A stretch of 64,000 nucleotides of DNA from Kyrpidia tusciae DSM 2912 (GCF_000092905.1 NC_014098.1:124001-188000), one strand, 5' to 3'; positions 1 to 12,778 are shown, counted from the first letter of the stretch. Numbers and translations: made by a program. The notes: generated by a model from the sequence alone, not told the origin.

Positions 1-742
1 GGTCGCGAAACAAACCGGGCAGCTTGTGGTCAGCATTTCTCAGCGCCGGGGTGTCATTACCCTGTACCAAGCCAATCTGCGCTATGCGTTGAAAGACCTG
101 GGAGTGATTCTGACCAAGGCGAATCAAGCGATCCAGACATTGGAGAAATATAAAGCGGTTTTGGATCAATCCCTCACGAATCTGAGCGCCTTAGAATTCG
201 AAGAGCTCGTGACATTGCAAGAAGTGGCCCAGGTCATTCAGCGAATTGAAATGGTGTTGCGCATCAAGGCAGAAATCCGCCGTTATATCGTCGAGTTGGG
301 GACGGAGGGGCGGCTGATCTCCATGCAACTGGAGGAGCTGGTGTCCCGGGTGGATGAGGAAGCGTACCTTCTTGTAAAGGACTATTGCCGTGAAGGGGTG
401 GACGTCACTCCCCACCACATTCTGACCAATCTGCACGAACTGAGTGCCGAAGAGTTGTTGGACCCCGGTGCCATCGTCCGGGTACTCGGGTATCCGGGTG
501 GCGTGAATGTGGCGGAAGAGACGGTGTATCCCCGAGGCTATCGGGTACTGAATAAGATTCCTCGGCTGCCCCAGCCGGTTGTGGAAAACTTAGTAAAGCA
601 GTTTCAGGGTCTGTCTGGTGTCATGGGGGCGACGATTGAGCAATTGGACGATGTCGAGGGAATCGGGGAGGTGCGGGCTCGGGCGATCCGGGAGGGGCTG
701 AAGCGGGTCCGGGAGTTGGTGCTGATCGATCGACATATGTGA
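1..742 (+). CDS. disA: DNA integrity scanning diadenylate cyclase DisA, 3' part (5' truncated by window edge)
   Basis: The reading frame is open from base 2, so the gene begins outside the window and about 246 C-terminal residues remain. The first visible residues ([17 protein letters not shown]) match the end of the DAC domain of DisA. The all-helical linker follows ([16 protein letters not shown]), and the C-terminus carries a helix-hairpin-helix DNA-binding motif ([17 protein letters not shown]). DisA makes cyclic di-AMP from two ATP and scans DNA for branched structures during growth and sporulation. The catalytic DGA and RHR motifs lie upstream of the window and cannot be checked. Its position before carD and the PIN-TRAM gene matches the usual radA-disA neighbourhood. 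A strong hairpin terminator follows the stop codon. Confidence 0.96.
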
Positions 743-747
743 CGATG

Positions 748-775
748 CCGGCCGGAGTACGGCCGGAAATTTTTT
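748..775 (+). terminator. Rho-independent terminator after disA
   Basis: A 7-bp perfect stem, CCGGCCG (748-754) with CGGCCGG (760-766), has a 5-nt loop and is followed by AAATTTTTT. It begins 5 nt after the disA stop codon. Confidence 0.85.
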
Positions 776-840
776 CGTTGCGTGCCCGGGTCGGACATTG
801 ACGAATCGTGTCGGAGCGTGATATTATGTAAATTTAAAAA

Positions 841-869
841 TTGACACAAAGAGTCAGATGTGATATGCT
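841..869 (+). promoter_or_regulatory. Sigma-A promoter for carD, extended -10
   Basis: TTGACA (841-846), a 17-nt spacer and TATGCT (864-869), with an extended -10 TG at 861-862. It lies 38 bases upstream of the carD start, just after the disA terminator. Confidence 0.75.
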
Positions 870-906
870 GGAGGCGTATCCCGTTGAATTCTAAACCCAG
901 AGGTGC

Positions 907-1410
907 ATGCACTTGTTTAATGTTGGGGACCGCGTGGTCTATCCGATGCACGGAGCGGGTGTGATCGAGTCGATTGAAGAACGCGAAGTGTTGGGGAAGA
1001 CAGGACGGTACTACATCATGCGGATGCCGGTGGGAGACATCAAGGTGATGGTCCCCATTGAACAAACCGGGGCTGTGGGGTTGCGGGAGGTCGTCGACGC
1101 CGAAGGTGTTCACAAGATCCTCGACATTTTGTTCGATGAGGGAACCCAGGAGACGGCCGCCTGGAATCGCCGCTACCGAGACAATATGGACAAGATCAAA
1201 AGTGGCGATGCGTTTGCCATCGCCGATGTCGTCAGGCAGTTGGCCTGGCTGGACCGCCACAAAGGCCTGTCCACGGGGGAGAAGCGGATGTATGAGATGG
1301 CCCGGCAGATCTTGCTGAGTGAATTGAGGCTGGCGGCTCCACAGGAAGATGCGGATCGGCTGGAGGAACTCACGGCACGGCTGGGTGGGAACCGGAGAAC
1401 CGGATGCTGA
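907..1410 (+). CDS. carD: CarD/CdnL-family RNA polymerase-binding transcription regulator
   Basis: The 167-residue protein opens with the RNA-polymerase interaction domain of the CarD/CdnL/TRCF family (FNVGDRVVYPMHGAGVIESIEE, residues 4-25). A helical C-terminal domain typical of CdnL follows. Family members bind the RNA polymerase beta subunit and stabilise open promoter complexes, notably at rRNA promoters. The ATG at 907 is preceded by a modest Shine-Dalgarno (AGAGGTG). The gene has its own promoter and sits between disA and the PIN-TRAM gene, as in many Bacilli and Clostridia. The family call is secure; the promoters it regulates are not visible here. Confidence 0.93.
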   Translation: MHLFNVGDRVVYPMHGAGVIESIEEREVLGKTGRYYIMRMPVGDIKVMVPIEQTGAVGLREVVDAEGVHKILDILFDEGTQETAAWNRRYRDNMDKIKSGDAFAIADVVRQLAWLDRHKGLSTGEKRMYEMARQILLSELRLAAPQEDADRLEELTARLGGNRRTGC

Positions 1411-1440
1411 AAGGTCGGCGACAAAACCAAAGAGCGAAGG

Positions 1441-1467
1441 TTGGTGTGCCGCGGCACTGTCTATAAT
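1441..1467 (+). promoter_or_regulatory. Possible promoter for the PIN-TRAM gene
   Basis: A perfect TATAAT (1462-1467) lies 21 bases before the start codon of the next gene. The only -35 candidate, TTGGTG (1441-1446), is 15 nt away, which is short. Activity is therefore uncertain. Confidence 0.35.
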
Positions 1468-1488
1468 GGATACGTAGGAGGTGACTTC

Positions 1489-2556
1489 ATGATCAAGCGC
1501 ATCGTCCAACTGTTTTTTATCGTCATCGGCCTTGTGCTCGGGTATGCGTTGATCCCAGTGCTCTTTGAAACAGTGGGAATCAGCCGACCTCCTTTCGACA
1601 ACCCATACTTTGGAGCGGTTCTTGGGGGCAGCATATTTGCGATCGTAACCGGGTGGCTCGTGGGGTACATGATGAGCTTGATCCGCTGGGTGGAGGACCG
1701 ATTTCAGAGGATGCCGTTGCCCGACATGATTGCCGGCATCGTGGGATTGATCGTCGGTTTAATCGTGGCCTATCTTTTGACGCCGACAATGGTCCGGATT
1801 CCGATCGTCGGATCGGTGGTTCAGATATTCATGAGTGTTTTGTTTGGATACTTGGGATTTCGTGTGAGCTACGCCAAGCGCGAAGAGCTGAAACCTTTTC
1901 TGCCGGGAAAGATCGGCAGCAAGGAGAAGAAAACCGGAACGCGCCCGGGAGAACATAAGATTCTCGATACCAGTGTGATCATTGACGGACGAATCGCGGA
2001 TATCGTGGGCACGGGATTTTTGGATGGGGTTCTGGTGATTCCCTCTTTCGTCCTGGAGGAACTCCAGCATATTGCCGACTCTTCGGATGTGTTGAAGCGC
2101 AACCGCGGGCGCCGAGGGTTAGACATTCTGAACCGGATTCAAAAAGAAACCAGCGTCAAAGTTCAGATTGTCGAAACCGATTTTGAGGACGTTCAGGAAG
2201 TGGACAGTAAACTCGTCCGCCTGGCGAAAAAGATGCAGGGTAAGGTTGTGACCAACGATTTTAACCTGAACAAGGTCTGTGAATTGCAGGGCGTTCCGGT
2301 GTTGAACATCAACGATTTGGCCAACGCCGTCAAACCTGTCGTTCTGCCTGGCGAGGAGATTGTCGTTCAGGTGATCAAGGATGGCAAGGAGTACGGTCAG
2401 GGAGTTGGGTATCTGGACGACGGCACGATGATTGTCGTCGAAGGAGGCCGGGACTACATCGGAACCCATGTGGATGTGCTGGTGACCAGTGTTCTCCAAA
2501 CGTCTGCGGGCCGCATGATTTTCGCGAAACCGAAGTTGTTGGAAAAGGCACTTTGA
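1489..2556 (+). CDS. PIN and TRAM domain membrane protein (YacL family)
   Basis: The start chosen is ATG 1489, preceded at good distance by AGGAGGTG, rather than an upstream in-frame GTG; this gives 355 residues. Four hydrophobic segments (about residues 4-26, 41-64, 79-97 and 104-125) are followed by a PIN nuclease domain with acidic residues D160 and D166 (ILDTSVIIDGR) and a later NDFNLN motif. A C-terminal TRAM RNA-binding domain covers about residues 290-350. This is the architecture of B. subtilis YacL, a conserved membrane protein between disA and ispD. It is probably a membrane-tethered RNase or RNA-binding protein, but its physiological substrate is unknown. Confidence 0.92.
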   Translation: MIKRIVQLFFIVIGLVLGYALIPVLFETVGISRPPFDNPYFGAVLGGSIFAIVTGWLVGYMMSLIRWVEDRFQRMPLPDMIAGIVGLIVGLIVAYLLTPTMVRIPIVGSVVQIFMSVLFGYLGFRVSYAKREELKPFLPGKIGSKEKKTGTRPGEHKILDTSVIIDGRIADIVGTGFLDGVLVIPSFVLEELQHIADSSDVLKRNRGRRGLDILNRIQKETSVKVQIVETDFEDVQEVDSKLVRLAKKMQGKVVTNDFNLNKVCELQGVPVLNINDLANAVKPVVLPGEEIVVQVIKDGKEYGQGVGYLDDGTMIVVEGGRDYIGTHVDVLVTSVLQTSAGRMIFAKPKLLEKAL

Positions 2557-2614
2557 GCCCGGAGGCGCAGTTTGTTGAGGCAAGCGTCGGGCCGAATAAG
2601 ATCTGCGGATCAGA

Positions 2615-2638
2615 CAAAGCGGGGGAAACCCCGCTTTG
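2615..2638. terminator. Hairpin between convergent yacL-like gene and ispD
   Basis: A perfect 10-bp stem, CAAAGCGGGG (2615-2624) with CCCCGCTTTG (2629-2638), is closed by a GAAA tetraloop. It lies between the 3' ends of two convergent genes. There is no good T-run on either strand, so termination efficiency is uncertain. Confidence 0.55.
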
Positions 2639-2643
2639 CGCCG

Positions 2644-3324
2644 TCATATGCCTCTCTCCAAGAGAGCTTCAGCCAGTGTGAGGTCCTCAGGGGTCGTGAT
2701 TTTGAAGTTAAAAGGGGAACCCGTTACAATGTGGACGGGGATGCCAAGCTTTTCGACCAGGGATGCGTCGTCCGTTGCCGACCAATGTTCGGCCCGAGCG
2801 CGCTCGTGGGCTTGCCGGAGGAGATCACCGGCAAAAGCTTGCGGGGTTTGGGATAGCCACATTTTTTCCCTCGGCATGGTTCGCTCGACCCGGCCGTTTT
2901 CCACCCACTTCACGGTGTCTTTGACCGGGGCCGCAAGGATAGCGGCTGGATGATCGTGAAGCGCGGCGAGAAGCCTGCGGACGTCGTCCTGTTGGACCAG
3001 GGGACGAGCTCCGTCGTGAACGAGGAGATGGGAACTTTCTCCGGCTGCGAGGATGCCCTGGTAGACGGACTCCTGGCGTTCCGGGCCCCCGGCGGTGATC
3101 CGCGTTGGCACTGGAATCCGGGCCCGTTCTATAAGATGGTGGGTGCGGACAATGTCCTCGGCGGCAGTGACCACGACGATGTTCCGGATGGCGGGAACAT
3201 GGGCGATCCGTTCGACGGCGTGGAGGAAAATCGGTTTCTGCCCTAGAAGCAAAAACTGTTTCTTCTCTGAGGCGCCCATACGGCGGCCTCGGCCTGCCGC
3301 AACGATGATGGCGGTGACATTCAT
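2644..3324 (-). CDS. ispD: 2-C-methyl-D-erythritol 4-phosphate cytidylyltransferase (IspD), inverted relative to neighbours
   Basis: IspD couples CTP to MEP in the non-mevalonate isoprenoid pathway. The 226-residue protein has the N-terminal nucleotide-binding loop AAGRGRRMG (residues 9-17), DGARP (104-108), a PVKDTVK motif and a C-terminal PFNFKITTPEDL segment, all typical of the family. ATG is preceded by AGGTGAGG. In most Bacilli ispD lies co-directionally between yacL and ispF. Here it has the same neighbours but the opposite strand, with its own extended -10 promoter, so the change looks like an inversion of this single gene. It cannot be co-transcribed with ispF. Confidence 0.96.
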   Translation of the reverse strand: MNVTAIIVAAGRGRRMGASEKKQFLLLGQKPIFLHAVERIAHVPAIRNIVVVTAAEDIVRTHHLIERARIPVPTRITAGGPERQESVYQGILAAGESSHLLVHDGARPLVQQDDVRRLLAALHDHPAAILAAPVKDTVKWVENGRVERTMPREKMWLSQTPQAFAGDLLRQAHERARAEHWSATDDASLVEKLGIPVHIVTGSPFNFKITTPEDLTLAEALLERGI

Positions 3325-3359
3325 CGATTCGAAAACCTCACCTGATCAGTCATATCGTC

Positions 3360-3368
3360 ATTATATCA
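3360..3368 (-). promoter_or_regulatory. Extended -10 promoter for the inverted ispD
   Basis: On the minus strand the sequence reads TGATATAAT, a perfect extended -10 element, 35 bases before the ispD start. The -35 region at 3383-3388 reads CCGACG on that strand, a weak match. It overlaps the ispF ribosome-binding region. Confidence 0.6.
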
Positions 3369-3387
3369 CGGGGAGAGGAGAGCGTCG

Positions 3388-3867
3388 GTGGTGAGGATTG
3401 GCATCGGGGTGGATGTCCACCCATTTCAGAACGTACCTGGCCATCTGCGGCTGGGTGGGATCGCGATTCCTTTCGAGAAAACCCTGGCGGGCCATTCGGA
3501 TGCAGACGTGGTGTTGCACGCGGTGATCGACGCGGTTTTGGGGGCCCTTGCCGAAGGGGATATCGGAGGCCATTTCCCGGACAATGATGCGACCTATCGG
3601 GGGGCGGACAGCGGGGATCTCTGTCGCCGGGTATGGGGAATCGCCCGGGAGCGCGGCTACCGATTGGGGAACGTCGACGTGGTGATTCTCGCTGAGCGTC
3701 CCCGGATCGCACCCCATGTCCCGGCGATGCGGGGGAGACTGGCGGAGTTGCTCGAGGCTGACATTAGCCAGGTCAGCATTAAGGCAACGACCACCGAAAA
3801 AATGGGATTCATTGGCCGGGAGGAAGGACTGGGCGCGCAAGCGGTGGTTCTGTTGCTCCCAAGGTGA
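3388..3867 (+). CDS. ispF: 2-C-methyl-D-erythritol 2,4-cyclodiphosphate synthase (IspF)
   Basis: IspF cyclises CDP-methylerythritol phosphate to MEcPP and CMP in the MEP isoprenoid pathway. The 159-residue length is normal. The zinc ligands D9, H11 (GVDVHPF) and H44 (DADVVLHAV) are present, as is the C-terminal TTTEKMGFIGREEG motif. Translation starts at GTG 3388, preceded by GGGGAGAGGAG. The start is divergent from ispD, only 63 bp away. The stop codon TGA (3865-3867) forms part of the extended -10 promoter of the next gene, gltX. Confidence 0.96.
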   Translation: MVRIGIGVDVHPFQNVPGHLRLGGIAIPFEKTLAGHSDADVVLHAVIDAVLGALAEGDIGGHFPDNDATYRGADSGDLCRRVWGIARERGYRLGNVDVVILAERPRIAPHVPAMRGRLAELLEADISQVSIKATTTEKMGFIGREEGLGAQAVVLLLPR

Positions 3868-3873
3868 TATAAT
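3865..3873 (+). promoter_or_regulatory. Extended -10 promoter for gltX
   Basis: The sequence TGATATAAT (3865-3873) is a perfect extended -10 element whose TGA is also the ispF stop codon. No good -35 is visible at 17 nt. It lies 49 bases before the gltX start. Confidence 0.5.
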
Positions 3874-3922
3874 GCTGACAGATTGTCGGGGAATCTGGCC
3901 CGGCGAGGAGGGACCCGTTGGC

Positions 3923-5398
3923 GTGCGCATTCGGGTGCGGTACGCGCCCAGTCCCACCGGCCATCTGCACATCGGTGGGGCGAGGACGGCGTTGTTCAAT
4001 TGGTTGTTCGCCCGTCAAAAGGGCGGGCAGATGGTGTTGCGTATCGAAGATACCGACCGTTCCCGGGAGGTTGCCGGGGCGGAGGAAAAGATGGTCGATG
4101 CGCTGCGCTGGTTGGGGTTGGACTGGGATGAAGGACCGGATATCGGCGGAAAGTTTGGTCCGTACCGGTCCATGGAGAGGCTGGATTTGTACCGTTCGCT
4201 GGCCAATCGCCTTCTCGAAGAGGGGCGGGCGTATCCGTGTTACTGTACGCCCGAAGAGTTGGAGGCACAGCGGGAGGAGATGCGACGCCGCGGGGTGATG
4301 CCGCGGTACTCGGGGCGATGCCGCCACCTGACGGCAGCCGAGAGGCGGCGCCTTGCTGCGGAAGGTCGGCCATTCACCGTGAGGTTTCGAGTTCCCGAAG
4401 GGCAAACGGTTTCTTTTGAAGATCTGGTACATGGCACCGTCAGCTTCGAAACCGATGGTATCGGCGACTTTGTCATCGTGAAATCTGACGGGATTCCGAC
4501 CTATAATTTCGCCGTGGCGGTGGATGACCACTCCATGCAGATCTCCCATGTGATTCGAGGAGAGGAACACCTCTCCAATACTGCAATCCAGCTTCTGGTG
4601 TATGATGCCCTTGGGTTTCCGACTCCCGGGTTTGCCCACGTTCCCTTGATTCTGAATGAGTCGGGAAAGAAGCTGAGCAAGCGGGACGAATCCGTGGTTC
4701 AGTTTGTCGAGCAGTACCGGGATCTGGGATATGTTCCGGAGGCGGTGGTGAACTACTTGGCTCTGCTTGGCTGGTCTCCGGTTGGTGAGCGGGAGTTCCT
4801 GTCCTTGGAAGAGCTGGTTCAGGAGTTTTCTCTCGATCGGGTTGGCAAGAGCGGGGCGGTGTTTGATCCCGTGAAGCTGCGTTGGCTCAATGCCCACTAC
4901 CTGCGCGGGCGGCCGGATGAGGAGCTCCTGAAGTTGTGTCTTCCGCATCTCGTGGCGGCGGGGCTTCTCGCGGAGCCACCGAGCGCCGAAGACCTGGAGT
5001 GGGCGCGGCGGGCCGTGGAACTGTACCGAGACCAGTTAGAATATGCCGCACAGCTGCCGGAGTTGGCGGGCTGGCTGAAATCTCTCCCCGATCCGGATCC
5101 AGAGGGAGAGCGGATTCTAGAAGATCCCTCGGCCCGGAAGGCGGCCGATGCCTTTTATCAAGAGATATCGGCATTGAGCCAATGGACTCCAGACGGGATT
5201 CATGCGGCGTTCAAGCGGGTCCAGAAAACCACCGGTTTACGCGGGCGCCAGTTGTTCATGCCGATTCGGGTGGCGGTCACCGGGCGAACCCACGGGCCGG
5301 AGCTACCGAAGGTGCTGAACCTATTGGGGCGTGAGGTCGTGTTGGGGCGGCTTCGGGAGTATGCGGGCCGTTCCCGGACGCTGCCCGGGGAGAATTGA
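3923..5398 (+). CDS. gltX: Glutamyl-tRNA synthetase
   Basis: This class I aminoacyl-tRNA synthetase charges tRNA-Glu and, in organisms lacking GlnRS, usually tRNA-Gln as well. The start chosen is GTG 3923, 10 bases after GAGGAGGGA, which places the HIGH-type motif (PTGHLHIGG) at residues 11-19 as expected; 491 residues. The KMSKS-type motif is GKKLSKRD. A CxC plus CxH zinc site is visible around residues 100-130 (YPCYCTPEE and SGRCRH). The open frame continues upstream through ispF, but that extension is not family-like. The gene is followed by the T-box leader of cysE. Confidence 0.96.
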   Translation: MRIRVRYAPSPTGHLHIGGARTALFNWLFARQKGGQMVLRIEDTDRSREVAGAEEKMVDALRWLGLDWDEGPDIGGKFGPYRSMERLDLYRSLANRLLEEGRAYPCYCTPEELEAQREEMRRRGVMPRYSGRCRHLTAAERRRLAAEGRPFTVRFRVPEGQTVSFEDLVHGTVSFETDGIGDFVIVKSDGIPTYNFAVAVDDHSMQISHVIRGEEHLSNTAIQLLVYDALGFPTPGFAHVPLILNESGKKLSKRDESVVQFVEQYRDLGYVPEAVVNYLALLGWSPVGEREFLSLEELVQEFSLDRVGKSGAVFDPVKLRWLNAHYLRGRPDEELLKLCLPHLVAAGLLAEPPSAEDLEWARRAVELYRDQLEYAAQLPELAGWLKSLPDPDPEGERILEDPSARKAADAFYQEISALSQWTPDGIHAAFKRVQKTTGLRGRQLFMPIRVAVTGRTHGPELPKVLNLLGREVVLGRLREYAGRSRTLPGEN

Positions 5399-5429
5399 TT
5401 GCTGATCCTTGGATCTGCCGGGACAAAAC

Positions 5430-5700
5430 CGAAGATGGCAAACCCGTCGGGCGGGAGGAGTACCGGAGGGAACCGCACAGAGAGGGCCGCACCCCAAGCC
5501 GGGGGCTGAGAGTGGCCTGCGGGACTCCCTGTGGGAATGCGCCCGCCCCTGTGGGGCGAGAGGAACGGCGGCGTCTCGCCGCTCAGTAATGCTCGCCGGA
5601 TAGCCTCTCCGTGATCGGAGGCCCAAGAGGAAAGAAGGCCCCCTTCTTTCAAACAGAGTGGAACCGCGGGAACACCGTCTCTGATGGGATGGTGTTTTTT
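5430..5700 (+). promoter_or_regulatory. T-box riboswitch, cysteine specifier, controlling cysE-cysS
   Basis: The conserved T-box sequence AGAGTGGAACCGCGGG is at 5655-5670, immediately followed by an intrinsic terminator. Stem I can be folded: GGGCGGG (5449-5455) pairs with CCCGCCC (5542-5548). Above it the specifier loop is formed by AGTA (5459-5462) opposite GAATGC (5535-5540), and a further helix uses 5463-5470 with 5527-5534. The specifier codon is TGC at 5538-5540, cysteine, matching the downstream serine acetyltransferase and cysteinyl-tRNA synthetase genes. Uncharged tRNA-Cys should stabilise the antiterminator. This RNA fills the 385-bp gap after gltX. Confidence 0.93.
5671..5700 (+). 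terminator. T-box regulated terminator
   Basis: AACACCGTCTC (5671-5681) pairs with GGGATGGTGTT (5686-5696), with one wobble pair, and is followed by a T-run to 5700. It is mutually exclusive with the antiterminator formed by the T-box sequence at 5655-5670. Confidence 0.88.
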
Positions 5701-10007: not shown

Positions 10008-10037
10008 GGAAGGCGCCAGTGCTGACGCATGAACCGG
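10008..10037 (+). repeat. Left target duplication and left terminal inverted repeat
   Basis: The 9-bp direct repeat is 10008-10016 and the terminal repeat is 10017-10037, beginning CAGTGCTGACG and ending GAACCGG. The boundary between the two is ambiguous by one or two bases because the flanks are GC palindromic (GGCGCC). Confidence 0.9.
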
Positions 10038-10161
10038 GAAGCCCTTGGGACGCTTGACTTCAGAGCGTGTCTCAAGAAAATTTGATTGCAAATACGACTG
10101 GACAGTTCTGAGCCCATCTGAGATGATAACCTTGGAGATGATGTCGAGAGGTGAGTCTCAG

Positions 10162-11070
10162 ATGGACGTACCCTTTTGGATTGGCGACCGAGAGTTTCGC
10201 GAGGCGGACCTGGAATTGATTCGAAACACGGTCCAGCGGTTTTCCCGCTTGAGTCGAGAGGAAATCGCGGCGACCTTGTGTGAGAATCTGCCGTGGAAGT
10301 CTCCGAATGGCCGGCTGAAAGTCGAAGCCTGCCACAAGCTGCTTCTAAAACTCGAGCAAAAAGGAGTGATTACTCTTCCGCCCTTGCGAGCCCAGGGTCC
10401 CCGAGGGTGCCGGGAACGAAGAGGGGGGGTGGTACAAACCCAGCTTCAGGCGTGCCTGCGGGATGTCCTTCCGGTCATCGTGGAGCCGGTCCGTCCGGAA
10501 GAACGGGCAGACTGGAACGCGACCATGGCGACGTATCACCCGTTGGGGTACCTTCGTGCGATCGGGGCCCGCATCCAGTACTGGATCCGGGCACAGGGGC
10601 CAAACGGACCGGTCATTGTGGGGGCGATGTTGTTTGGGGCTGCGGCGAAGGCCCTGGCTGCACGGGATCAGTGGATCGGATGGACGGCGGAGCAGCGCAG
10701 GCGGTATCGCCCACGAATCGTGAACAACAATCGGTTTCTGATTCTGCCGGGTGTACAGATTCCCCATCTGGCCAGTCATGCGCTTGCGTTGGCGGCCCGG
10801 CGGATTCGAGCGGATTGGAAGGCGCGCTATGGGTTTGAACCGGTTCTTTTGGAGACGTTTATCGAACCCCAATATCCAGGAACTTGCTACCGAGCGGCCA
10901 ACTGGATCGAGATCGGGAAGACGGCGGGACGAGGAAGACAGGATCGATTCTTCGAGTATGGAACGTCCGTGAAATCGATCTGGGTCTATCCGCTGGTGCG
11001 GGACTGGCGGAAGCGGTTGGTCGAACCCTTTCCACAGCTTGTGGAAGACGAGTGGGGGGAATCGAGATGA
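10162..11070 (+). CDS. DruA-like DUF4338 protein encoded within the insertion sequence
   Basis: The start chosen is ATG 10162, preceded by AGAGGTGAG, giving 302 residues; the frame is open to TTG 10045. Conserved DUF4338 features are visible: YHPLG (125-129), RDQWIGW (168-174), NNNRFLILPGVQIPHLASH (188-206), a DWKARYGF segment, LETFIE, GTCYRAANW (240-248) and GRGR (256-259). DUF4338 is the family of DruA of the Druantia anti-phage systems, but no DruE-type helicase or other defence gene is present. The stop codon overlaps the transposase start as ATGA. A role in transposition, or as a passenger, is inferred. The biochemical activity of the family is not something I can state. Confidence 0.85.
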   Translation: MDVPFWIGDREFREADLELIRNTVQRFSRLSREEIAATLCENLPWKSPNGRLKVEACHKLLLKLEQKGVITLPPLRAQGPRGCRERRGGVVQTQLQACLRDVLPVIVEPVRPEERADWNATMATYHPLGYLRAIGARIQYWIRAQGPNGPVIVGAMLFGAAAKALAARDQWIGWTAEQRRRYRPRIVNNNRFLILPGVQIPHLASHALALAARRIRADWKARYGFEPVLLETFIEPQYPGTCYRAANWIEIGKTAGRGRQDRFFEYGTSVKSIWVYPLVRDWRKRLVEPFPQLVEDEWGESR

Positions 11071-12482
11071 CGCTTCGGAATCCCGAGTCGATTCACCCCT
11101 GGACCCTTCCGAATCGGAAAAGCTCGTATCGAAACAGCGAGGAGGAGCGAGCGGACCGGCAAACGGCCGTGGAAGCCCAGTTGCCGGTTTGGCGAGCGTT
11201 GTTGCCGGGCTTGATGGAGAAGTTTTCACGGATTGCCGACCCCCGACGTCCAGGGAGCATTCGGCACAAACTGACTGTGCTTCTGACGTTTGGGCTGTTT
11301 ATGTTTATCTTTCAGTATGCCTCCCGCAGAAGAGCCAATCGGGAACTGACGCGTCCAACGTTTTGGGAACACTTTCGGGAGATCTTTCCGGAGGTGGAAA
11401 CCATCCCGCATATGGACACGGTGCAGCGGATCTTGGAACGGATCAATCCGGGGGAGCTCGAGGAGGTGATGACGGCGACGGTGAAGCGCCTTCTGCGGTC
11501 GGGACGACTGAAGGCGCTGTTGGTCGAGAAGCAATACGTGATCGCCATAGACGGCACCCAAAAGGCGAGTCGGGGGCAGCCCTGGGCCTCGGAGGCTTTG
11601 CATCGTCGGCACGGGGAGAACCAGGTCTCGTCCATGGCCTATGCCCTGGAGGCTAGCCTTGTCAGCCCTCAAGGGGTGGTCCTCCCGTTTCTCACGGAGT
11701 TTTGCGAGAATGCGGCTGAGCAGCAGGAGTTCGAGAAGCAAGACAGTGAACTGAAGGCCTGCAAACGGCTGCTGACCCGCCTGCGCAAGATGTTTCCCAA
11801 ATTGCGGATCTTGGTGGTGGCCGACGGGCTGTACCCCAACGGGCCGATGATGGCGCTGTGTCGGGATCTGCATCTGGACTTTATGTTTGTCCTGCCCCAA
11901 AGCTGTTTGCCCAGTGTGTGGGAAGAGGTCAAAGGCTTGAGAAAGATCGAACCCAACGAGCGGAGACACCGGTGGGGCAATCGCGAGCAAATCTTTTGGT
12001 GGATCAATCAGATCGACTATGATTTCAGGGAGGCTTCCGGGGCGCACCGTCGGCTTAAGGTGCATGTCGTGGGATGTACAGAGTTTTGGGAAGAGGGGGG
12101 GAAGCAGCAGGAGGCGCATTGGGCGTGGGTGTCCGGGCAGCCGCTGACGGCACAAAATGTGGTGAACCGCTGCAATCGTGCGGCACGCCACCGATGGGAC
12201 ATTGAGGAACAGATCCTGACGGAGAAGCACCGGGGATACGAGTATGAGCACCTGTACTCCACCGACTGGACGGCGATGCGAAACTGGCACGTGCTGATGC
12301 ACCTCGGCCATCTGGTGAACGTCATGGCCTTGCATACCGAAGGGCTGATGAAGAAAGTGCGGGAACTGGGCTTTAGCGGGACGTTGAAGTTTCTGTACGA
12401 AAGCTGGACGCAGGGGTGGATGGATCGGGACTGGCTGCTGGCGCGTTGCCAAGGTCCTCCGCGGCTGACGATGGCGTTTTAA
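11067..12482 (+). CDS. DDE-type transposase (IS4-superfamily-like)
   Basis: ATG 11067 overlaps the stop of the DruA-like gene and gives 471 residues. A likely DDE triad is D162 (AIDGTQK), D253 (VVADGLYP) and a glutamate of RWDIEEQ (380-381), in a context like the YREK-type motif of IS4-like transposases. The short N-terminal domain contains DPRRPGSIRHKL. No frameshift or internal stop is seen, so the enzyme should be active. Its preserved reading frame and perfect element ends suggest recent mobility. The exact insertion-sequence family is unresolved. Confidence 0.9.
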   Translation: MTLRNPESIHPWTLPNRKSSYRNSEEERADRQTAVEAQLPVWRALLPGLMEKFSRIADPRRPGSIRHKLTVLLTFGLFMFIFQYASRRRANRELTRPTFWEHFREIFPEVETIPHMDTVQRILERINPGELEEVMTATVKRLLRSGRLKALLVEKQYVIAIDGTQKASRGQPWASEALHRRHGENQVSSMAYALEASLVSPQGVVLPFLTEFCENAAEQQEFEKQDSELKACKRLLTRLRKMFPKLRILVVADGLYPNGPMMALCRDLHLDFMFVLPQSCLPSVWEEVKGLRKIEPNERRHRWGNREQIFWWINQIDYDFREASGAHRRLKVHVVGCTEFWEEGGKQQEAHWAWVSGQPLTAQNVVNRCNRAARHRWDIEEQILTEKHRGYEYEHLYSTDWTAMRNWHVLMHLGHLVNVMALHTEGLMKKVRELGFSGTLKFLYESWTQGWMDRDWLLARCQGPPRLTMAF

Positions 12483-12661
12483 CAGGAATATCTTGCAATA
12501 TCGTTCTGTGGGGGAGGGGAGGTGTAACCTCTGGTGAACCAATTATCAACAGAAATGGATTTCCCTGTCATTCACGGCGATTCTCCTTTACAAGGACACC
12601 CTACAGGCAGAAGGGATTCAGACTCCGGGGCCGCCTCAGCTGCCTCCGAATTTTTTCTACA

Positions 12662-12691
12662 CCGGTTCATGCGTCAGCACTGGGAAGGCGC
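12662..12691 (-). repeat. Right terminal inverted repeat and right target duplication
   Basis: Positions 12662-12682 are the exact reverse complement of the left terminal repeat. Positions 12683-12691 repeat the 9-bp target sequence. The -35 box of the next promoter begins 8 bp further on. Confidence 0.9.
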
Positions 12692-12699
12692 CAGCAGGG

Positions 12700-12728
12700 T
12701 TGACACCAAAGTCTGGCTGTGATAGTGT
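12700..12728 (+). promoter_or_regulatory. Promoter of rpmG-secE-nusG, adjacent to the insertion site
   Basis: TTGACA (12700-12705), a 17-nt spacer and TAGTGT (12723-12728) with an extended -10 TG at 12720-12721. The -35 box lies 8 bp outside the right target duplication, so the element did not destroy this promoter. Confidence 0.7.
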
Positions 12729-12778
12729 ATTTGGGGTATCCGGCTGGATCATCGGGCCATTTCCTGGAGGTGTCACGG

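Follow-up and report, generated by a model that had tools for sequence, protein, structure and literature searches.

The window, i.e., the whole stretch of 64,000 nucleotides from Kyrpidia tusciae DSM 2912 (GCF_000092905.1, NC_014098.1:124001-188000) that was analyzed, contains a complete insertion sequence with two genes (Table 1). The first one, here called ORF1 (open reading frame 1), codes for a DUF4338/DruA-like protein with a predicted GNAT acyltransferase domain resembling Mom of phage Mu, and the second one, ORF2, codes for a DDE transposase. The element had been described before in a sequence-only reading by its perfect 21-bp inverted repeats, a 9-bp target duplication and the ATGA overlap of the two genes. 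The repeats and the duplication were confirmed at the locus and in the further copies of the element, and the profiles PF14236 and PF13808 confirmed the identity of both genes.

As proposed in that reading, the genome, which consists of one contig of 3.38 Mb, was searched for copies with the same termini and both genes, and eight full copies of 2666 bp with about 99% identity were found. The 21-bp ends are perfect in all of them, and a 9-bp duplication that differs from copy to copy flanks each of them (GGAAGGCGC at the locus described here, and CAGGCCGGC, TGAGTGATT, GAGCCAAAG, ATTACAAAA, GATGGGGTT, ATGCCGGGC and TGCGCGGAT at the others). The reversed end pattern, which served as a control, had zero matches in the genome. 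Taken together, the eight copies with perfect ends and distinct duplications and the empty control exclude that ends and duplications arose by chance. All the characters of an insertion sequence, namely inverted repeats, a target duplication and a transposase in multiple copies, are present. A search at the DNA level did not find the element in plasmids. Between the eight copies 49 alignment columns are variable, and those of the 3′ noncoding stretch are clustered in blocks at 12499-12623, which suggests exchange between copies or loose constraint.

In addition, a decayed older relative of the element with 66-68% identity was observed at genome positions 3140278-3140815 (L009/L010), where it adjoins another transposase gene, and a solitary sequence resembling an end (TAGTGCTGACGCATGAATTGG), to which no second end belongs, lies at genome position 879574 (L027, 1501-1521). 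A few bases downstream of the element, at 12699-12730, a promoter-like site (TTGACA...GATAGT) precedes the rpmG-secE-nusG operon, which is oriented in the same direction as the element. The insertion may therefore leave the own promoter of this operon intact.

In none of the eight copies is either reading frame interrupted. Among these copies ORF1 shows five non-synonymous and six synonymous changes and ORF2 nine and eleven, corresponding to ratios of non-synonymous to synonymous polymorphism (pN/pS) of about 0.28 and 0.24, respectively; ORF1 is therefore about as well kept as the transposase. The ATGA overlap would allow translational coupling of the two genes. ORF1 reaches 114 bits with Pfam PF14236 (DruA/DUF4338), the gathering cut-off of which is 27 (E-value 7e-33). 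ORF2 matches PF13808 (5e-14) and is weakly similar to the IS1380 (6e-8), IS701 and ISAs1 families, in each case below the curated family cut-off. With the NCBIfam equivalog profiles it scores 31.7 bits for IS1380 (cut-off 180) and 18 bits for ISAs1 (cut-off 70). The start codon of ORF1 is most likely the ATG at 10162, which gives 302 codons. The upstream TTG at 10045 was discarded as a start, since the alignment with the relatives begins only near codon 40 of that frame, and the homology of the leader in one relative (L045) shifts the frame, which also speaks against it. The N-terminal domain of ORF1 is possibly winged-helix-like.

Two promoter-like sites were found in the leader of ORF1, compared with 0.1 in shuffled sequences, and one of them is kept in relatives (Table 1). 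It is followed by a hairpin (z-score -2.2), whose arms vary in sequence among the relatives while their pairing is retained in most of them (AGTGTGGG/CCCACACT, ATAGTGTGG/CCACACTAT, AGGGTGGG/CCCACCCT). The transcript start expected from the usual spacing would lie behind most of the left arm, so that the hairpin would fold only in read-through RNA.

Table 1. Features of the insertion sequence in the window; positions are counted from the first nucleotide of the window.
Feature	Position	Strand	Remarks
Complete insertion sequence, 2666 bp	10017..12682	+	One of eight near-identical genomic copies
Target-site duplication, left copy, 9 bp	10008..10016		Direct, GGAAGGCGC
Left terminal inverted repeat, 21 bp	10017..10037	+	CAGTGCTGACGCATGAACCGG
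Promoter-like site	10099..10127	+	TGGACA-N17-GATGAT, TG before -10; kept in relatives
Hairpin	10114..10165	+	Arms 10114-10124 and 10155-10165; right arm spans the ORF1 start codon
ORF1, 302 amino acids	10162..11070	+	DUF4338/DruA-like of insertion-sequence type; predicted Mom-like GNAT acyltransferase
ORF1 N-terminal three-helix domain	10162..10359	+	Residues 1-66; absent from ISAs1 and IS701 fusions
ORF1 GNAT-fold domain	10462..11025	+	Residues 101-288
ORF1 His126	10537..10539	+	Invariant 43/43; at Mom His48 in the alignment; replaced by Trp in Druantia DruA
ORF1 Ser205	10774..10776	+	Invariant 43/43; aligned with the Mom Ser mutated to Ala in 8bv8; replaced by Gly (once by Ala) in Druantia DruA
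ORF1 Glu231	10852..10854	+	Invariant 43/43
ORF1 Tyr243	10888..10890	+	Invariant 43/43; aligns with Mom Tyr149
ATGA overlap	11067..11070	+	ORF1 stop / ORF2 start
ORF2, 471 amino acids	11067..12482	+	DDE transposase, IS4 superfamily; nearest IS1380/ISAs1, yet under their cut-offs
3′ noncoding stretch	12483..12661	+	Most variable part, 16 of 49 variable columns
Right terminal inverted repeat, 21 bp	12662..12682	-	Perfect match to the left repeat
Target-site duplication, right copy, 9 bp	12683..12691		Direct, GGAAGGCGC

The association of PF14236 proteins with transposases was surveyed in 300 genomes of the phylum of the window (37 positive), 399 genomes of the Propionivibrio phylum (17 positive) and 148 genomes of the Desulfuromusa phylum (16 positive). 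The loci were sorted automatically into an insertion-sequence type and a Druantia type, with one locus (L109) moved by hand. A recognizable transposase gene on the same strand within 500 nucleotides was found for 34 of 49 loci of the insertion-sequence type, with four further ones ending at a contig border, and for none of the 14 loci of the Druantia type (Fisher's exact test, 2e-6). All relatives of the transposase with at least 40% identity and a readable context carry an ORF1-type gene upstream. The sequence-only reading had named as a refutation homologous copies with the same ends that lack the first gene and yet move normally; such a gene was absent only with cousins of the transposase at 23-27% identity.

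Furthermore, the partner transposases belong to at least seven families. The PF14236 domain is fused to transposases of the families IS4/Tn5 (L040, NCBIfam E-value 7e-102), ISAzo13 (L041, 2e-179), ISAs1 (L056, 3.5e-39) and IS701 (L059, 8e-90). Directly upstream of IS66 (L241, 1e-68) and ISKra4 transposases (L246, 2e-73; L241, 1e-108) it is encoded in an overlapping or abutting frame, and the window type is the seventh. In several cases the domain lies inside the ends of the element. An IS701 fusion is present in two 99.5% identical copies in one genome (L231/L232) with perfect 21-bp ends, a Tn5-type fusion (L042) is bounded by 17-bp ends with a duplication of 8 bp, 26-bp ends delimit an ISKra4 element (L246), and a further complete element was found at L234. 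At L241, two domain-bearing elements, one with ISKra4 and the domain and one with the domain and IS66, are arranged head to head within 39-bp direct repeats (1-5493). At L245 (1129-2911) the domain adjoins a transposase-like gene without a Pfam match, of which a piece of 217 amino acids was tested and which is perhaps a further partner.

In a tree of 52 proteins the labels of the transposase families require 10 changes within the insertion-sequence type, with a minimum of 9 and a mean of 34.9 for shuffled labels. The ISAzo13 fusions branch inside the clade of the window (support 100/98). This suggests a partner swap, in which an unrelated transposase would have taken the gene from a window-type element. 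Such repeated fusion, overlap and exchange of partners over a long time argues for work of the domain with the transposase and against chance cargo, and the suggestion of the sequence-only reading that ORF1 works together with the transposase is hence supported by fusions to four families, overlap or abutment with three, and a tree which follows the transposase family.

An AlphaFold model of ORF1 was built from 43 relatives, with a mean predicted local distance difference test score (pLDDT) of 89. Its best match in the whole PDB is Mom of phage Mu (8bv8, E-value 2e-5, probability 1.0), followed by other GNAT acyltransferases. The Mom profile (Pfam PF25680) matches 25 of the 43 insertion-sequence relatives, with a best E-value of 1.3e-5, and no other GNAT family does. 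In addition, a Mom search of 299 genomes, which was run to collect Mom sequences, independently picked up three loci of the insertion-sequence type. The phage-derived Mom loci are too alike to inform the comparison, few relatives of ORF1 are found on viral contigs, and a phmmer search of ORF1 against the PDB sequences gave chance-level matches only.

As a global profile alignment to Mom failed, the residues were mapped from a local alignment and a joint MAFFT alignment, using the numbering of the Mu record AAF01131 (His48, Ser114 and Tyr149), in which Ser114 is the S124A position of 8bv8. The weak profile comparison places Ser205 on this serine, which is alanine in the inactive mutant of 8bv8, and the joint alignment places His126 and Tyr243 as listed in Table 1. 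Among the site residues of Mom, the serine is the only one tied to activity here by a solved mutant. Gly146, Asn153 and Asp139 (as D/E) of Mom are also kept in most of the 43 relatives. The idea that Mom-type sites are present in the terminal repeat was dropped, as about one match to the loose Mom context is expected by chance. The resemblance of the modelled ORF1 to Mom in fold and active site is well supported by computation, and Mom, rather than DruA of Druantia, is the closer functional relative. ORF1 was not filed as Mom itself, since it is below the cut-off of the Mom family; it would instead be a protein that functions in the way expected of Mom.

Based on these results, the element is considered as a two-gene insertion sequence, in which a Mom-like acyltransferase acts with the transposase, probably on DNA; we rate this slightly above an even chance. 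ORF1 and ORF2 would be made as a single operon from the internal promoter, while the hairpin over the ORF1 start would keep read-through messages silent, in the manner of IS10 and IS50. Within the transposition complex ORF1 would then mark adenines with an acyl-type group, either at the element or close by, i.e., on its ends, the target or new copies. Such a mark might shield DNA that is being transposed or has just been inserted against nucleases or restriction, or alternatively it might set the activity of the ends, like Dam methylation does for IS10 and IS50. Action on DNA in the transposition complex is the simplest assumption because of the Mom-type site, the controlled operon with the transposase and the fusions in other elements. 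The element itself, its past movement, the coupling and the conservation of both genes are demonstrated.

Several points weigh against this interpretation. The template modelling score (TM-score) between the ORF1 model and Mom is about 0.5, ordinary GNATs follow closely, and the direct profile comparison of ORF1 and Mom is weak (hhalign E-value 0.0045, probability 8%). ORF1 itself has no match to the Pfam Mom profile up to an E-value of 1, and thus stays below the gathering cut-off of PF25680. Catalysis by ORF1, DNA as its substrate and its effect on transposition are steps that we infer. Most members of IS4, IS66, ISAs1 and other families are known to transpose without such a domain, which is hence not generally required. 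Moreover, apparently intact genes of the insertion-sequence type were seen standing alone at L078, L135 and L136, being solo genes or remnants; short paired ends, as for non-autonomous elements, were sought at these lone genes and none were found.

The alternatives which are left were ordered as cargo against restriction, an enzyme acting on protein or RNA, and a structural role alone. In the first case, which is unlikely, ORF1 would be a passenger without any role in transposition and would modify the bulk DNA of the cell, plasmid or phage carrying the element for survival in a new host. The conserved Mom-type site and the protection of Mu DNA from restriction by Mom (PMC7824862) speak for this. 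The repeated fusion to transposases and a tree that tracks their families point to the transposition complex instead, and the apparently hairpin-restrained expression is more fitting for a transposition protein than for one protecting bulk DNA.

Somewhat less probable still is an enzyme with the Mom fold but a substrate other than DNA, which acylates the transposase, another protein or RNA and thereby tunes the activity or stability of the transposase. For most GNATs the targets are amines of proteins or small molecules, many structures of this kind are almost as close to the model as Mom is, and a fusion would suit the modification of the own partner. However, the sequence signal is specific for Mom, as described above for the 43 relatives, and a common protein target site is unlikely in the transposases of seven families, several of which are unrelated.

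A non-catalytic helper, which binds the ends, picks the target or represses the transposase by means of the N-terminal helical domain, is improbable. Small proteins for regulation or targeting are found in many insertion sequences, and the three-helix domain is present in ORF1. The ISAs1 and IS701 fusions lack this domain, whereas the putative active-site residues are invariant in all 43 relatives.

The sequence-only reading had also considered a single-gene passenger defence related to Druantia. In favour of such an anti-phage defence as cargo, ORF1 shares with DruA the Pfam family PF14236; this reading is very improbable. The DruA models of PADLOC (PDLC00001 and PDLC00002) match ORF1 with E-values of 0.012 and 0.044, as against 1e-86 or better for real members (5e-87 to 3e-178). 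The sequence-only reading had noted that no DruE helicase is present, and no match to the DruE-type MZB domain (PF09369, MZB/DUF1998) was found in the genome, the control being positive in 8 of 14 genomes. The insertion-sequence type and the Druantia type form separate clades in the tree, split with full support (100/100) by very long branches, and differ in the active site. A role in passenger defence and membership in Druantia were rejected based on these scores, the missing MZB domain, the tree split and the active-site residues. Of the DruA homologue proposed before, the assignment to PF14236 stands, and ORF1 is a homologue only at the level of this broad family and not a Druantia DruA.

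At the position of His126 Druantia DruA has tryptophan and at that of Ser205 glycine or, once, alanine; the acid at position 235 is missing, and the position of Tyr243 is kept. The Pfam Mom profile matches none of the 14 Druantia-type proteins, and a model of one of them (pLDDT 84) gave only weak GNAT matches in Foldseek (best E-value 0.04); the 50 listed matches do not include Mom. Druantia DruA (PF14236) thus shares with the insertion-sequence type the broad Pfam family, a GNAT-like fold and largely the positions Gly135, Arg168, Tyr243 and Gly252, but it forms its own clade, carries Trp/Gly in place of His/Ser and has a transposase partner in none of 14 cases. It would be a distant branch without a Mom-type site, related to the insertion-sequence type by deep common ancestry. 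Since the clades are separate and the Mom-type site is largely lost in Druantia DruA, the element says little about a direct origin of Druantia, and a close tie to Druantia is not supported. A DUF4338 domain fused to DndF was described as a GNAT domain (PMC10853773), and phage proteins structurally similar to DruA were reported (PMC12774648). A sister species of the same genus (G001) has at L057 part of a druA gene of the Druantia type, which differs from the insertion-sequence type. Full-length Druantia-type genes stand beside a gene for a P-loop ATPase resembling HerA at L071 and L132, in a neighbourhood unlike classic Druantia.

In the open-access full-text literature, no paper linking DruA/DUF4338 with transposases was found. 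Elements with accessory genes are already known, and it is the enzyme-like accessory domain shared across seven transposase families which appears to be new. This points to many jumping genes carrying a chemistry of their own, by which their movement is aided or controlled. The wider claim, that widespread insertion sequences of at least seven DDE transposase families encode a Mom-like base modifier which marks DNA during transposition, with Druantia DruA as a distant branch that lost the site, is held tentatively, somewhat short of an even chance. If it is true, many bacterial transposons would have DNA modification as a built-in activity beside cutting and joining, and a large set of the proteins labelled as Druantia defence would be mislabelled, being transposition proteins nearer to Mom. 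Surveys of defence genes by PF14236 alone would take insertion sequences for defence. For DruA of Druantia, the split leads to the testable idea of a GNAT-like fold with a lost Mom-type site.

In comparison with known systems, the element shares with the IS1380 and ISAs1 families of the IS4 superfamily weak transposase matches, the DDE chemistry and terminal repeats. It differs from them by scores far under their cut-offs, the 9-bp duplication and a second gene in every close relative. Elements of the IS66 and IS21 families also carry an accessory protein in an operon with the transposase (TnpB and IstB, respectively), but these proteins are unrelated to ORF1, whereas the enzyme-like ORF1-type domain spans seven transposase families and is often fused to the transposase.

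Mom puts an acyl-type group on adenine of Mu DNA, which shields it against restriction (PMC7824862). With ORF1 it has in common the fold, the invariant His/Ser/Tyr and the mostly kept Gly/Ala/Asn, and it is likewise encoded by a transposing element with a DDE transposase. In contrast, mom is a late phage gene that is neither fused to nor overlapping the transposase gene. In the ORF1-type proteins a helical domain is added at the N terminus, as is an RD...W segment further on (Arg168, Asp169 and Trp174), the overall sequence identity to Mom is low, and the acyltransferase activity of ORF1 is a prediction.

Finally, the proposed control would resemble the fold-back inhibition of IS10 and IS50, as the hairpin in read-through RNA would hide the first start codon. 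The control of transposon ends by base modification is an established principle, as Dam methylation acts on IS10 and IS50. There the Dam methylase of the host is used, whereas the element in the window would bring its own modifier.
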